Assembly (NCBI RefSeq): GCF_900090285.1
Contig: NZ_LT607754.1
Location: forward strand, 5,606,001 to 5,670,000
Origin: Micromonospora inositola
GTDB lineage: Bacteria; Actinomycetota; Actinomycetes; Mycobacteriales; Micromonosporaceae
DNA length: 64,000 nucleotides
Direction of reading: 5' to 3'
Shown: in pieces, positions 939 to 6,135 of the stretch
How the letters are laid out: each line of letters begins with the position of its first letter
How positions within the stretch are numbered: the stretch's first letter is position 1
Translations under genes and position numbers: made by a program
Notes under the pieces: generated by a model
Databases searched by the model: none
What the model saw: the letters and a program-made list of their open reading frames with translations, nothing else
Told to the model about the DNA's origin: nothing

Positions 939-998
939 GTTGATCATGAAGTTATTGCCGTGACACGCCAGGCGGGTGACAACAACTTCATGATCAAC
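939..998. repeat. Palindromic intergenic repeat (copy 1) between convergent genes
   Basis: GTTGATCATGAAGTT at 939-953 is repeated exactly in inverted orientation at 984-998. Inner parts are also related: TTG.CGTGACACGCC faces GGCGGGTGACAA. The whole 60-bp unit lies between two convergent genes ending at 904 and 1034. A partial second copy occurs at 13776-13800, also at convergent gene ends. It could act as a bidirectional terminator or be a dispersed REP-like element. Confidence 0.75.
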
Positions 999-1033: not shown

Positions 1034-2305
1034 TCAGGCGGGGGTGAGGACGGCTTCCTTGAGGAGGCGACGGGCGAGGACGATGCGGTCGGCGTCGTCA
1101 TCGAGGCCCGGGAGGTCGCCGACCCGGCTGACCTCGCCGGCGAGGACGGCGCGCAGGGCCGGCTCGCAGGTGCCGGGCAGGGTGATGGTGCGGTCGAACA
1201 GGCGCAGCGCCACCTTCCCGTCCCCGGTCGGGGTGAGGTGCCAGCGCAGGCCGGCGCGGGGCGCCACCCGACTGTCGGCGTCCAGCGTGGCCAGGGCCGC
1301 GGCCTGCGCGAGGGGGCGGATCGGCGCCGGTCGGGCCGCCGGCCAGGCCCGGTCGCGCAGCCGGGCGGCGACCGCGGTCGGGTCGGCCCGCAGCAGCCAG
1401 TCGCGCAGCGCCTCGACCGTCTCGGTCAGCTCCGGCTCGATCGCGTCCGGGTCGGCGACGTCGGTGCCGAAGGGCAGCCCGGCGCGCAGCCGGGCGTCCT
1501 CGGCGGCGAGCGCGAGCAGCTCCTCGACCACGGCGTACCGCGTCAGCGCCCGGATGCCGACAGTCAGGTGCAGCGAGCTGGACTCCTGCGCCTGGGCGCT
1601 GTGCAGCCAGCCGCGTGGCAGATAGAGCGCGTCGCCCGGTTCCAGCACCACGTCCAGCGCGGCGGTCCCCTCGGCGGTGGCGGCGACCTCGTCGGCCCGC
1701 CCGCCCCAGGGCTGCTGCTCCAGCGGGTCGGGCAGCACCGGCGGGTGGATCCGCCAGTGCTTGCGGCCGTCCACCTGGAGCACGAAGACGTCGTGGGTGT
1801 CGTAGTGGGTGGCGAAGCCCTGGCTGCCCGCCGGGGTCAGATAGGCGTTGACCTGCAGCGGCTGCCGTAGCGCGGTGCCCAGGTCCCGGGCGAAGTCGAC
1901 CAGCGCGGGCCAGATCCGGTGCAGGCCCTGGAGCACCAGGGTCGCGCCGGCGGCGTACAGCTCCAGGACCTTCTCGTCGAGGACCTGGTCTGCGATCTCG
2001 GCGCCCGCGCCGCCGCCGCCGGTCCAGCGCGCCGCGGGCACGAGCTGGCCGTCCTTGGCCACCCGCAGGAACGGGGTACGCAGACCCCGCCGGCTGAGCA
2101 GCTCGTCGGCGTCGGCGGGGCTGAGCAGGTCGGTGAAGCCGCGCGGGTTGGGCAGCTCGGCGGCGCGGGAGAGCAGCGGCGCGGTGCCCCAGTGGGCGGC
2201 GGCGAACTTCGCCGGTTCCACCGAGATGCACCGGGCGAGGGCGTCGGTGGCGGAAGACGGGACCGCCGGGCGGCCACGGCCGCCCGGCGGGTCGAGGTGC
2301 GTCAC
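1034..2305 (-). CDS. JmjC/cupin-fold Fe(II)/2-oxoglutarate-dependent hydroxylase
   Basis: This 423-aa protein belongs to the cupin-like JmjC hydroxylase family (the PF08007/ROXA-like group). Members hydroxylate side chains of proteins or peptides using Fe(II), 2-oxoglutarate and O2. The likely facial triad is H167-Y-D169 in ATHYDTHD plus H235 in RGWLHSAQ, with K182 in GRKHWRIH placed to bind 2-oxoglutarate. The C-terminal 180 residues resemble the dimerisation/winged-helix extension of the ribosomal-oxygenase branch. The GTG start at 2305 lies only nine bases after the stop of an Asp/Gly-rich repeat peptide on the same strand, so the two are almost certainly co-transcribed. The proposal that the peptide is the substrate is inference; ribosomal protein hydroxylation is the alternative. 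Confidence 0.88.
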   Translation of the reverse strand: MTHLDPPGGRGRPAVPSSATDALARCISVEPAKFAAAHWGTAPLLSRAAELPNPRGFTDLLSPADADELLSRRGLRTPFLRVAKDGQLVPAARWTGGGGAGAEIADQVLDEKVLELYAAGATLVLQGLHRIWPALVDFARDLGTALRQPLQVNAYLTPAGSQGFATHYDTHDVFVLQVDGRKHWRIHPPVLPDPLEQQPWGGRADEVAATAEGTAALDVVLEPGDALYLPRGWLHSAQAQESSSLHLTVGIRALTRYAVVEELLALAAEDARLRAGLPFGTDVADPDAIEPELTETVEALRDWLLRADPTAVAARLRDRAWPAARPAPIRPLAQAAALATLDADSRVAPRAGLRWHLTPTGDGKVALRLFDRTITLPGTCEPALRAVLAGEVSRVGDLPGLDDDADRIVLARRLLKEAVLTPA

Positions 2306-2314
2306 GACGATCCG

Positions 2315-2605
2315 TCAGCTGGCGCTGCCGTCGGCGCCGCCGTCGCGCTGGCCCGGGGTCGCGCCGCCGTCGGCCGGACCCTCGGCGCCACCGTCCGCGC
2401 CACCGTCCTGCTGGCCCGGGGTCGCGCCGCCGTCGGCCGGACCCTCGGCGCCACGGTCGGCCCCTCGGTCGGCGCCACGCTCAGCGCCACGGTCTGCGCC
2501 GCCGTCGGCGCCACCGTCCTGCTGGCCCGGGGTCGCGCCACCGTCGGCCGGGCCTTCGGGGCCGCCGCCGCCGGTCGTCTGCATGTCGTCGTCGTTGAGT
2601 GCCAT
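2315..2605 (-). CDS. Repetitive Asp/Gly/Ala-rich small peptide, candidate substrate of the adjacent hydroxylase
   Basis: This 96-aa peptide starts at the ATG at 2605 behind GAGGGAG. After a short leader with an acidic patch (MALNDDDMQTTGGGG) it contains three near-identical units, EGPADGGATPGQ(Q/R)DGGADG(G/S), at residues 17-36, 54-73 and 75-94. Between the first two sits a run of GADRGAERGADRGADR. It contains no Cys, Trp, Tyr, Phe, His or Lys, an extreme composition that suggests a secreted, modified or disordered peptide rather than an enzyme. The stop at 2315 lies nine bases before the JmjC hydroxylase start. Gene order, size and leader-plus-repeats layout fit a RiPP-type precursor, but no modification has been shown, and other frames over this DNA are also open. 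Confidence 0.7.
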   Translation of the reverse strand: MALNDDDMQTTGGGGPEGPADGGATPGQQDGGADGGADRGAERGADRGADRGAEGPADGGATPGQQDGGADGGAEGPADGGATPGQRDGGADGSAS

Positions 2606-2833
2606 GGGTGCTCCCTCGGGTGTGCCGCCCCGCCGTACGTCGGGGTTTCGTCGTGGAGCGGGTGGTACCCCACGTGCGATCTTCTCTAACCACACGGTAG
2701 ACGTCGGAACCCGGCGACACGGACGGTTCGCCGGCCCCGAACCTGGGCCATCCGTTGCGGCAGCCCACGCCTGCGGGCGCAGACCGCTGTGCGGTGTCAG
2801 GATGTACCGGGAATTGGCCGGCAGGAGGGTCGC

Positions 2834-3583
2834 ATGGCGCAACCGGAGGTCGAGCCGCTGGAGCCGCTGTCCGAGGACTGGCAGCGCGGCCTGGCGGTGG
2901 TGGCGCACCCCGACGACCTGGAGTTCGGCGCGGCGGCGGCCGTCGCGCGCTGGACCGGGCAGGGCAAGGAGATCATCTACTGCCTGGTCAGCAGCGGCGA
3001 GGCGGGCATCGACGGGATCCCGCCGGAACGGACCCGGGCGATTCGCGAGCGGGAACAGCGCGAGTCGGCCGCCCTGGTCGGGGTGCCCACCGTGGAGTTC
3101 CTCGGCCTCCCCGACGGCCTGCTGGAGTACGGCGTCGCGCTGCGCCGCGAGATCGCCGCGGTGGTCCGCCGGCACCGCCCCGACGTCGTCATCACCAACA
3201 ACTTCCGGGACACCTGGGACGGGGCGTACGCGCTCAACCAGGCCGACCACATCGCCATCGGCCGCGCGGTGCTGGACGCGGTCCGCGACGCCGGCAACCG
3301 GTGGATCTTCCGGGAGCAACTGGTTGACGGCGTCGAGCCGTGGAACCGGGTACGGCAGGTCTGGGCGGCTGCCTCCCCGCAGTCCCGGCACGGGGTGGAC
3401 GTCACGGCGACCTTCGAACGGGGCGTGGCGTCGCTGCGGGCGCACGAGGAGTACCTGCGCGGGCTCGGGAACGGCGGCCTCGACCCGGAGGAGTTCCTGG
3501 AGGGGATCAGCCGGCCCGCCGGCACCCGTCTCGGGGTCCGCTACGGCGCCGCCTTCGAGGTCTTCCACTTCGACCTCTTCTGA
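2834..3583 (+). CDS. PIG-L/LmbE family zinc-dependent N-acetyl-sugar deacetylase
   Basis: This 249-aa protein starts at the ATG at 2834 behind AGGAGGGT. The family removes N-acetyl groups from GlcNAc-containing substrates; MshB in mycothiol synthesis and Mca are actinobacterial examples. The signature VAHPDDLEF near residue 22 supplies the zinc-binding His and Asp-Asp motif, and later NQADHIAIG supplies the third metal-ligand His. The length is typical. It stands alone, divergent from the repeat-peptide/hydroxylase pair across a 228-bp promoter region, so no substrate can be assigned. The true MshB is usually longer, and this looks like one of the generic paralogues. Confidence 0.88.
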   Translation: MAQPEVEPLEPLSEDWQRGLAVVAHPDDLEFGAAAAVARWTGQGKEIIYCLVSSGEAGIDGIPPERTRAIREREQRESAALVGVPTVEFLGLPDGLLEYGVALRREIAAVVRRHRPDVVITNNFRDTWDGAYALNQADHIAIGRAVLDAVRDAGNRWIFREQLVDGVEPWNRVRQVWAAASPQSRHGVDVTATFERGVASLRAHEEYLRGLGNGGLDPEEFLEGISRPAGTRLGVRYGAAFEVFHFDLF

Positions 3584-3735
3584 GCGGTCGAGTCGCGCCT
3601 CCGGGTCACGGCGCCTTGCAGGCATGGCGGTGGAGCCGACCTGCCGACTTCGGCGAGAGTCCGCGTGGGACAGGTGCGCTTCGGAAGGATCGGCCCCAGG
3701 GAACGTTCCGCACGCGAGCCGTCCGAGGTGCTGCC

Positions 3736-4935
3736 ATGTCCCAGCCGGCGAGTCATCCACGAGCCCCGTCGCGCACCTGGTACCGGCCGATGGTCGCCCG
3801 CCCCAGCGACGAGCCGTATCGGAGGGTGACTCCACTCGAGCTGCTCTTCGACCTGTGCTTCATGGCCGCGGTGCGGCAGGCCGCCGACCGGCTGCACCAC
3901 GACCTGGGCGAGGCCGACATCGGCCACGGGATCGGCCTCTACCCGGCGGTGTTCTTCGCGATCTGGTGGGCGTGGATGAACTTCACCACGTTCGCCTCCG
4001 CGTACGACCCCGAGGACGACGTCTACCGGCTCACCACCCTCGTCCAGATCGCCGGGGCGCTGGTGATCGCCGGTGGGGTGCCCCGCGCCTTCGACCACGG
4101 CGACTTCTCCGTCATCACGTACGGGTACGTGATCATGCGCCTGGCGATGGTCGGGCAGTGGTTGCGCGTCGCCCACAGCGACCTTGAGCGGCGAGCCACC
4201 GCCTTGCGCTATGCCGTGGGCATCATCGTGCTGCAGGCGGCCTGGATCGCCCGGCTGGCACTGCCCGACGGATGGCCCTGGCTGTTGCCCGGCTTCCTGG
4301 CGGTCGCCGTCGCCGAACTGCTGCTGCCGTTCTGGGCCCGGCGCCCCGCTCCGATCATCTGGCACCCGCGCCACATAACCGAGCGGTACGGCCTGTTCAC
4401 CATCATCGTGCTCGGCGAGTCGGTACTCGCCGCCAGCCTCGCCGTGCAGACGGCCTTCGACAGGGGGACCAAGGCGAGCACCCTGCTGTCGATCGCCGGT
4501 GCCGGTGTGGTGATCGTCTTCGCCATGTGGTGGCTGTATTTCGACCGTCCGGTCGAACACCTGGCAACCTCGCCGCGCGTGGCGCTGCTGTGGGGATACG
4601 GCCAGTACCTGATCTTCGCGTCGGCGGCCGCGCTCGGCGCGGGTCTGGCCGTCGACGTCGACTACCAGACCGGCGCGGCACACCTCGGGCGCGTCGCCGC
4701 CGGGTACGCGGTGGCCGCGCCGGTCGCCATCTACCTGATCGCCGTCTGGACGCTGCACATCCGCCCATACGAGCAGCTGAAGATGACCGTGCCGTACTGG
4801 GCCACCGCGGCGCTCGTGCTGCTCACCCCGCTCACACCCGCGCCGTCCCGCCTGGCCGCTCTGCTCCTCGCCGCCCTCGTCGCCACCACCGTCATCGCCA
4901 CCCGACGCGGGATGGGCGCGGCGACCGGTCACTAG
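3736..4935 (+). CDS. Low temperature requirement A (LtrA) family integral membrane protein
   Basis: This 399-aa polytopic protein starts at the ATG at 3736, preceded by GAGGTG. The N-terminal RRVTPLELLFDLCFMAAVRQ block is the LtrA family hallmark (VELFFDL), followed by WWAWMNFTTFASAYDPED. About ten hydrophobic segments cover the remainder, and RYGLFTIIVLGESVLA marks the second conserved block. Family function is unknown; the name comes from a Listeria mutant unable to grow in the cold. It is transcribed on its own, followed by the MscS gene on the same strand after about 160 bases. A small CCCCG-CTGT-CGGGG hairpin lies just after the stop. Confidence 0.88.
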   Translation: MSQPASHPRAPSRTWYRPMVARPSDEPYRRVTPLELLFDLCFMAAVRQAADRLHHDLGEADIGHGIGLYPAVFFAIWWAWMNFTTFASAYDPEDDVYRLTTLVQIAGALVIAGGVPRAFDHGDFSVITYGYVIMRLAMVGQWLRVAHSDLERRATALRYAVGIIVLQAAWIARLALPDGWPWLLPGFLAVAVAELLLPFWARRPAPIIWHPRHITERYGLFTIIVLGESVLAASLAVQTAFDRGTKASTLLSIAGAGVVIVFAMWWLYFDRPVEHLATSPRVALLWGYGQYLIFASAAALGAGLAVDVDYQTGAAHLGRVAAGYAVAAPVAIYLIAVWTLHIRPYEQLKMTVPYWATAALVLLTPLTPAPSRLAALLLAALVATTVIATRRGMGAATGH

Positions 4936-5092
4936 GTCCACCCCCGCTGTCGGGGCGGTGACCCAGCCTGCCGACGCGTGCCCGATCGCCGCGGGCCTTC
5001 GCGTGGCCTGGTCGTTTCCAGATGCACACCGCACGGTCGCAACTCCCGTGACAGGCTCGGACAGGACAACCTGCCCGAGGAGTTGGAGGAGC

Positions 5093-5125
5093 ATGAGCAC
5101 TACGGCTGCTTCGGTCGGCGCCTGA
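5093..5125 (+). CDS. Possible 10-codon leader ORF coupled to the MscS gene
   Basis: An ATG at 5093 has the best ribosome binding site of the region (GTTGGAGGAGC) and encodes MSTTAASVGA before a TGA. That stop overlaps the ATG of the channel gene (TGATG, 5123-5127). It could be a translationally coupled leader. It could also be the true N-terminus of the channel separated by a one-base frame error. The channel ATG has no good site of its own, which supports some role for the upstream start. Confidence 0.4.
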   Translation: MSTTAASVGA

Positions 5126-6135
5126 TGGTCTCGGTGGCGATCGTGCTGGCCTCGCTGGGAGCGGCGCTCCTGCTGGATCGGTTCACCGGCGTACTCGTCC
5201 GGCGAATCGCCCGCGGCCGCTACCAGTGGTGCCTGACGCCGTTGTATAAGGCCTGCCGACGTCCCGCGATCATGGTGCTGCTGCTCGCAGCGCTGTACTT
5301 CGCGATGCCGACAGGGCCGGACTGGTGGATTCGAGCAGTCCGCCACGGGGTCCAGCTGCTGCTGGTCGGCGGTACCGCGTGGCTGATAGTCAAGGCCCTG
5401 TACGTCACCGAAAGCATCATCTTCAGCCGGCTGCCGGAGGCGACGGTCTCGAACCGCCGCATCCGGCGCGCCCGCACCCAGATCCGGCCGGTACGGCGTC
5501 TCACCGCGACCGTCGTCACCATCCTGGCGATCGGCCTGATCATGGTCACCTTCCGGCCGGTACGCCTGTTCGGTCTGTCGGTGCTGGGATCGGCCGGAGT
5601 GGTCGGCGCGGTGATCGGGCTCTCCGCGCGGACCGCCCTGGGCAACGCCTTCGCGGGAATCCAGGTGGCCTTCGCCGACTCACTGCACGTCGGCGACGTC
5701 CTGGTGATCGAGGGTGAGTGGGGCCGCGTCGAGGAGTTGAAGCTGACCAACGTCGTCATCCGACTCTGGGACGACCGGGTGCTCATCCTGCCCACGACCT
5801 ACTTCACCGAACGCCCGTTCCAGAACTGGACCCGGAACGAAAGCCGGGTGGTCGGCCAGATCAAACTTCACGTGGACCACACGGCCGACCTGGACGACCT
5901 GCGCACCGAGGCCCGGCGGCTGGTCGAGGCGTCGCCACTCTGGGACCGGGACCAGTGGGTACTGCAGATGGTCGACGCAACCGCACAGAGCGTGGTCATC
6001 CAGATCCAGGCCTCCGCCGCCGACGGCCCGAGCGCCTGGGACCTCCGCTGCGACCTCCGCGAGGGCCTCATCCGCTACCTTCGGGATGAGCACCCGCAGT
6101 GGCTCCCCCGCACCCGCAGCGAATACAAGCCCTGA
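5125..6135 (+). CDS. MscS-family small-conductance mechanosensitive channel
   Basis: The 336-aa protein, read from the ATG at 5125, belongs to the MscS family, whose members open on membrane tension to release solutes during osmotic downshock. Four hydrophobic segments precede the pore helix. The pore-lining stretch and following beta domain are recognisable in LGSAGVVGAVIGLSARTALG and NAFAGIQVAFADSLHVGDVL (about residues 152-191), then EGEWGRVEELKLTNVVIRLWD. The C-terminus retains the typical soluble alpha/beta vestibule. The frame is open back to 4978, but that upstream part is poor in conserved features. Translation probably depends on the 10-codon ORF overlapping the start. The next gene follows on the same strand after 46 bases. 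Confidence 0.88.
   Translation: MVSVAIVLASLGAALLLDRFTGVLVRRIARGRYQWCLTPLYKACRRPAIMVLLLAALYFAMPTGPDWWIRAVRHGVQLLLVGGTAWLIVKALYVTESIIFSRLPEATVSNRRIRRARTQIRPVRRLTATVVTILAIGLIMVTFRPVRLFGLSVLGSAGVVGAVIGLSARTALGNAFAGIQVAFADSLHVGDVLVIEGEWGRVEELKLTNVVIRLWDDRVLILPTTYFTERPFQNWTRNESRVVGQIKLHVDHTADLDDLRTEARRLVEASPLWDRDQWVLQMVDATAQSVVIQIQASAADGPSAWDLRCDLREGLIRYLRDEHPQWLPRTRSEYKP

Follow-up and report, generated by a model that had tools for sequence, protein, structure and literature searches.

A conserved pair of an Asp-repeat peptide and a NO66-type JmjC oxygenase looks like a widespread peptide-modification system of actinobacteria

JmjC enzymes have a precedent for acting on RiPPs in BipG, given in the covered parts of its description as the JmjC ornithine gamma-hydroxylase of the biphenomycin RiPPs (PMC12707348). 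The covered parts of Bregman et al. 2025 (PMC12710340) report bacterial homologues (~30% identity) of RRE-JmjC fusions in RiPP-like contexts, and define the RRE as three strands then three helices in a winged helix. Hydroxylation of Asp to aminomalonate in a graspetide cluster is attributed to SmaO/SmaX as cited in PMC13097080, in the portion of that source covered here.

The window, the 64,000-nucleotide stretch of Micromonospora inositola DNA analysed here, contains a short minus-strand operon in which a small repetitive peptide gene precedes a JmjC gene. Its features are as follows.

2665..2690, minus strand: SigB/SigF-type promoter motif GTTAGA-N14-GGGTAC, with GGGTAC starting 65 nt before the ATG
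2315..2605, minus strand: Asp/Gly/Ala-repeat peptide, 96 aa, proposed precursor and substrate; a corresponding ORF is 5′ of the enzyme in nearly all homologues
2561..2605, minus strand: leader-like N-terminal segment MALNDDDMQTTGGGG, with an acidic motif common in the peptide ORFs
2501..2557, minus strand: repeat unit 1, EGPADGGATPGQQDGGADG
2390..2446, minus strand: repeat unit 2, EGPADGGATPGQQDGGADG
2327..2383, minus strand: repeat unit 3, EGPADGGATPGQRDGGADG
1034..2305, minus strand: NO66-type JmjC Fe(II)/2-oxoglutarate oxygenase, 423 aa, proposed peptide hydroxylase
1541..1858, minus strand: JmjC_2 domain with H167, D169, H235 and the invariant K182, from a PF08007 match and alignment
1037..1270, minus strand: C-terminal small domain, candidate leader-binding (winged-helix) domain from predicted secondary structure (block pLDDT 92–98)

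The peptide gene begins with ATG, with the sequence GAGGGAG at 2611–2617 (minus strand), and there is a nine-base gap between its stop codon and the GTG start of the enzyme gene (2305); the ORF coordinates thus agree with the initial annotation, in which a 96-aa peptide ended nine bases before the enzyme. That annotation also described three near-identical 20-residue units. There are indeed three copies, of the form EGPADGGATPGQ[Q/R]DGGADG and starting at residues 17, 54 and 75, but the unit quoted is 19 residues long. Copies 1 and 2 are separated by the divergent stretch GADRGAERGADRGADRGA, copies 2 and 3 have a spacing of 21 residues (TRF period 63 nt), and differences among the three are almost solely at third codon positions. 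The composition bears out the reported lack of Cys, His, Lys and aromatic residues, although the absence of His is not a family trait, as 93 of 123 distinct cores contain it. The window peptide matches no NCBIfam model, and among four other peptides compared with NCBIfam one matched adhesin models only, far below their cut-offs; the 96 database relatives of the window peptide are named ‘hypothetical protein’, in one case ‘BatC protein’, or not at all. An acidic leader-type motif ([DES][DES][DE][IMTV] with T/S/R/V within three residues) is present in 153 of 172 peptide ORFs when searched for anywhere in the ORF, at least two of these matches lying outside the leader. The family therefore has the conserved N-terminal leader and variable or repeated core of a RiPP precursor, with the motif in these 153 ORFs and two repeat types described below. 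Micromonospora pattaloongensis (L104/L173) encodes a 222-aa peptide with long GADRGVERGADAGADV repeats, a repeat expansion, and with an Arg/Glu-containing stretch resembling that of the window peptide.

The JmjC-type identity of the enzyme is confirmed by a PF08007 match of 104.6 bits (cut-off 22, E 3.6e-30), and H167, D169 and H235, previously noted as intact, are invariant across 45 aligned homologues. Neither the window enzyme nor the 45 aligned enzymes match any NCBIfam model. The nearest solved sequence is human NO66, and the predicted fold is of the NO66/MINA53/YcfD type over nearly the full length, C-terminal domain included. In this domain predicted strands (E346-349, E356-359, E364-368, E373-377) precede helices (H378-388, H404-416), an order that fits the RRE definition only roughly. 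A profile of the domain does not match a ten-sequence PqqD profile (hhalign probability 1.2%), and PF05402 is not among the matches of 38 family members. RREs are divergent in sequence, however, and likeness to the PqqD profile is supporting rather than obligatory. We propose from the predicted structure that the C-terminal domain may hold the peptide leader.

We collected 220 loci with enzyme homologues from the window genome and its relatives, samples of the class and phylum, named genomes and chosen stretches; those from named genomes are the best 80 of 353 and 40 further stretches were hand-chosen, such that the loci are not a random sample. Removal of loci with identical DNA over a 440-base stretch of the enzyme gene leaves 188 non-redundant loci, and six with fewer than 350 bases upstream were set aside from the peptide counts. 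Scoring of peptides ignored the leader: an ORF that stops close to the start of the enzyme gene counts when its final 70 residues contain at least six D[GASTP] dipeptides and 12% Asp. By this rule a peptide ORF lies directly 5′ of the enzyme at 98/99 loci with at least 60% enzyme identity (the miss, L052, is masked by N), at 49/49 loci at 43–60%, at 21/23 at 34.4–43% (the misses being L175 and L187), and at 3/11 below 34.4%, where L191 meets the rule but by eye is not a repeat. None of 728 random places in the collected loci does so. The cut-off of 6 dipeptides replaced an initial 7 once genuine peptides with 6 had been found, the null maximum being 5; at 7 the counts are 94/99, 46/49, 20/23 and 3/11. 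In the least selected set, 30 loci from the phylum search, 28 have the peptide, L204 lacks it, and L216 is cut by a contig end.

A small precursor gene is thus conserved beside its putative modifying enzyme, and the locus counts bear out the co-occurrence of peptide and hydroxylase subfamily that the initial annotation suggested looking for in related genomes. Rather than hydroxylases kept without the peptide, homologues down to ~34% identity nearly always carry it. The peptide is absent at distant paralogues of 30–37% identity (L175, L176, L177, L192, L195 and L196), and L193, L194 and L197 fail the rule but carry other short Asp-containing ORFs. At L187 (the same locus as L204) the enzyme groups with the paired enzymes, and the neighbouring ORF is acidic and non-repeat. 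The enzyme itself is patchy, with matches in 42/296 phylum genomes at E ≤ 1e-20, and in 52/246 class and 142/249 order genomes at E ≤ 1e-30. When the 246 class genomes were searched for a DGGADG-type DNA pattern, 33 of the 38 with at least three same-strand matches (tallied by eye) also had the enzyme at E ≤ 1e-30. The five without it are G417, in which three listed sites are far apart, G451, in which two listed sites are 48 bases apart, G313, G345 and G442. Plasmids contain solely partial enzyme matches of less than 60% identity, 37 of the 39 records being from Streptomyces. The pairing is old, and the comparison of sequences places the system much more widely than the window. Because the pair recurs in many actinobacteria, it looks like a widespread and previously undescribed peptide-modification system; no description of an Asp-repeat/JmjC pair was found in the open-access literature searched.

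The peptide frame is under purifying selection and does not vary randomly between relatives, the other outcome that would have counted against it. Among 1612 same-length pairs of peptide genes, which share ancestry and are not independent, so that the counts are descriptive, 46249 codon differences are synonymous and 13612 are not, where random mutation gave 1753 to 5712; differences at codon positions 1, 2 and 3 number 6936, 4564 and 53903. The parse for this test left out 12 repeat-bearing loci (six at contig ends, one masked, five with a different leader or start). Of 162 peptide start codons, 157 follow a Shine-Dalgarno-like run. As far as sequence can show, the conserved pairing and purifying selection support the earlier suggestion that the peptide is the substrate of the enzyme, which we consider very probable.

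Within the cores, Asp is almost absolutely conserved. Forty-seven distinct repeat units from 85 distinct peptides have three invariant Asp residues, though the search pattern left Asp free, and vary at positions 9, 10, 12 and 13 (mostly T/N, P, Q/H/K/R). Of 1105 residues directly before GG[AS], 1093 are Asp and none is Glu; of 845 in a second context, following Ala, 830 are Asp and 11 Glu. Only A, D and G are common to all 123 distinct cores, and only A and D to the last 45 residues of all 172 wider peptides (Gly is in 171); one core (L154) consists of Asp, Gly and Ala alone. Repeat type 1 comprises DGGADGGA/EGPADGGATPGQHDGGADG cores, with enzymes closer to that of the window, and type 2 comprises DADGTDGDATDGDA-like cores (DADGTDGDA...), with more distant enzymes and leaders such as LTDEDIKTT and VVDEDIETV. 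Repeat type follows the enzyme tree with 9 label changes, compared with 33.4 in shuffles; the labels are mechanical, those of L166 and L186 being doubtful and L096 and L216 scoring ‘none’ solely through contig ends. At the type 2 locus L217 the enzyme shows full identity, over the query, to that of Salsipaludibacter albus, and its next named relatives, by comparison of the enzymes only, are from a Nitriliruptoraceae bacterium (73%) and from Nocardioides and Aeromicrobium species (~57–62%).

Asp is the sole residue bearing a functional side chain that all of the cores contain, and Glu rarely takes its place, for which reason Asp hydroxylation is the likeliest chemistry. We regard Asp as the probable modified residue and lean, somewhat less firmly, towards its beta carbon as the site. 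Beta-carbon hydroxylation of side chains is the reaction of ribosomal oxygenases and of FIH. Our preferred reading is therefore a minimal RiPP-like operon in which the JmjC enzyme would bind the peptide and hydroxylate its repeated Asp residues, most likely at the beta carbon; we think it probable on the basis of the conserved operon, selection, the catalytic residues, the predicted NO66-like fold, Asp conservation and the Suc_Fer-like neighbour discussed below.

Some other chemistry on the peptide, whether ring formation, desaturation, or hydroxylation of Pro, Gly or Ala, is an unlikely alternative and the best surviving of those we considered. The RiPP chemistry of 2-oxoglutarate enzymes is varied, and the covered part of PMC13097080 mentions a two-step cascade from Asp to aminomalonate. 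Gly and Ala, too, occur in nearly all cores; Pro is missing from 4 of 123, and 28 of 172 peptides have none in their last 45 residues. For Gly or Ala hydroxylation by the JmjC_2/NO66-type family we know of no precedent.

Upstream of the peptide gene, GTTAGA-N14-GGGTAC is the single match in the window and does not occur in 100 shuffles. A looser form of the motif is found at 14/46 loci compared with 196/18400 random windows, nine of the 14 being from Micromonosporaceae and not independent, and five from other families; GGGTA[CGT] occurs 5′ of the peptide at 21/47 loci compared with 514/9400 random. The motif is similar to SigB-type promoters in Streptomyces coelicolor (PMC8346170) and to the SigF consensus of mycobacteria, GGWWT-N16-17-GGGTAY (PMC7693655), as given in the covered parts of the respective sources. 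The operon therefore has an upstream GTT-type −35 and GGGTA −10 of a putative SigB/SigF-type promoter; no sigma-70-type promoter or terminator was found in 850–2850. Between the 3′ end of the operon and a convergent ORF there is an inverted repeat (window 939–998, arms GTTGATCATGAAGTT[A/G]TTG) with a folding z of −4.28, and the arm sequence has seven matches in the genome, two of which are this hairpin.

A SigB/SigF-type motif is also what would be expected if the peptide were a stress hydrophilin, a very hydrophilic, Gly-rich, disordered protein produced in response to osmotic or desiccation stress, with the enzyme at most tuning it. The composition of the cores (~36% Gly, ~15% Asp, few bulky hydrophobic residues) is in keeping with hydrophilin criteria. 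Charge alone would allow Glu, however, and the near-invariance of Asp with so little Glu argues against such a role; nor do hydrophilins require a dedicated oxygenase. We consider this explanation improbable. Slightly more so is the view that the enzyme is a ribosomal oxygenase acting on a ribosomal protein, as NO66, MINA53 and YcfD do, and the peptide an independent operon neighbour: ribosomal oxygenases are its closest folds and sequences, but the peptide lies ahead of the enzyme throughout the phylum as sampled, repeat type tracks enzyme clade, and class genomes with clustered repeats usually hold the enzyme. A chance or spurious peptide frame is rejected by the 0/728 null and the codon test.

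Returning to the reading of a peptide hydroxylated by its neighbouring enzyme, a third gene is present in a subset of the operons. A Suc_Fer-like gene lies directly 3′ of the enzyme at 43/50 loci at 43–60% identity, 19/23 at 34.4–43% and 3/11 at lower identity, and at 0/95 at 60% or more, the window's locus included, as counted with a profile of eleven Suc_Fer-like proteins at loci with at least 900 bases downstream. The three third-gene proteins tested all match PF06999 (E 1.4e-15 to 2.5e-18); a search of the window's genome for PF06999 gave no match. The family includes thioredoxin-fold [2Fe-2S] proteins, among them those of the Apd1/Aim32 type. One third-gene protein was compared with the class sample: 31 of its 32 best matches adjoin the enzyme (by eye, the exception being in G455), and weaker matches, also by eye, are elsewhere in many class genomes. 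The literature searched yielded no role for Suc_Fer-like proteins beside a peptide hydroxylase. Among the 25 largest neighbour clusters at 53 loci (ORFs of at least 90 residues, flanks of ~1.5 to 6 kb) no protease or exporter was recognised, and no further neighbour stood out across families at these loci, neighbours conserved in Micromonosporaceae being left unannotated; leader removal and export could be by unlinked proteins.

We envisage a precursor made on the ribosome and induced under stress, its short acidic leader followed by a core of several Asp-Gly-Gly-Ala copies. The NO66-type JmjC enzyme would bind it through the leader and hydroxylate many of the repeated Asp residues, giving a poly-(3-hydroxyaspartyl) peptide. 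The Suc_Fer-like protein would then reduce iron, either that of the enzyme or that bound to the peptide. Hydroxyaspartate is an Fe(III) ligand of siderophores, and for this reason, together with the presumed redox partner, we favour metal chelation as a function; that the product chelates iron or another metal under stress, with this reductive role for the Suc_Fer-like protein, is a tentative suggestion. More doubtful still is the full proposal of a stress-induced ribosomal metallophore or metal buffer, patchy over the actinobacterial phylum, in which one JmjC enzyme makes the poly-(3-hydroxyaspartyl) peptide and a Suc_Fer-like partner releases or supplies iron. The acidic non-repeat ORF at L187/L204, the missing third gene at 60% identity or more, the lack of a recognised protease or exporter among the neighbours covered, the negative PqqD comparison and the patchiness count against our best explanation, as does the naming of the nearest solved relatives as His/Arg hydroxylases of ribosomal proteins.

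Several paralogues have other short ORFs or genes alongside. In a genome of the same taxonomic order as the window, a 62-aa peptide (L194:1683-1871) ending in tandem VIADNDPSDPVL x2 precedes a 34% paralogue and is a candidate for another precursor of the JmjC enzyme superfamily, and ORFs ending in GGDSDGTDSSSDFI (L193) and GAVADNDGND (L197), each just upstream of a 32–34% paralogue, are possible single-core precursors. At L175 (G142, of the same genus as the window) a frame adjoins a 37% paralogue upstream; by eye it reads like a SagB-type oxidoreductase, presumably another RiPP-like setting. Of 8000 candidates scored against the window enzyme, 6095 proteins are at E ≤ 1e-40, paired and unpaired together, and the system may show the role of a large group annotated as ‘cupin’ or ‘NO66’. 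For actinobacteria it would be a simple, old peptide-modification system of one repetitive substrate and one enzyme, which may hydroxylate many Asp residues within one peptide. The initial annotation mentioned neither the third gene nor the second repeat type, nor did it include how widely the system is distributed or the comparative evidence favouring Asp over Pro or Asn. On present evidence we would call this a new family of RiPP-like systems built on an enzyme superfamily already known; only with confirmation of the chemistry would it be a new class, and if the metallophore proposal is true, iterative hydroxylation of Asp in a repeat peptide would define that class.

Among described systems, BipG is alike as a JmjC enzyme acting on a ribosomal precursor peptide but differs, by the covered description (PMC12707348), in its ornithine target and multi-enzyme antibiotic cluster, whereas the operon here has two or three genes and its peptide a repetitive Asp core. 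SmaO/SmaX resemble the proposed system, by description, in peptide Asp beta-hydroxylation in a RiPP context, and their target is near the N-terminus of a graspetide precursor (PMC13097080, portion covered). The PF08007 proteins with RRE-like folds of Bregman et al. 2025 belong to the same Pfam family as the window enzyme, and the covered parts of that paper (PMC12710340) mention neither an Asp-repeat precursor nor a Suc_Fer partner, nor a distribution among actinobacteria. The three third-gene proteins tested match the Suc_Fer family (PF06999), and such proteins are here sited beside a putative peptide hydroxylase. NO66, MINA53 and YcfD (PF08007) share with the window enzyme a predicted fold over nearly its full length and the HxD...H iron site, but whereas they are described, in entry titles, as His/Arg hydroxylases of ribosomal proteins, the window subfamily is paired with a small Asp-repeat peptide.
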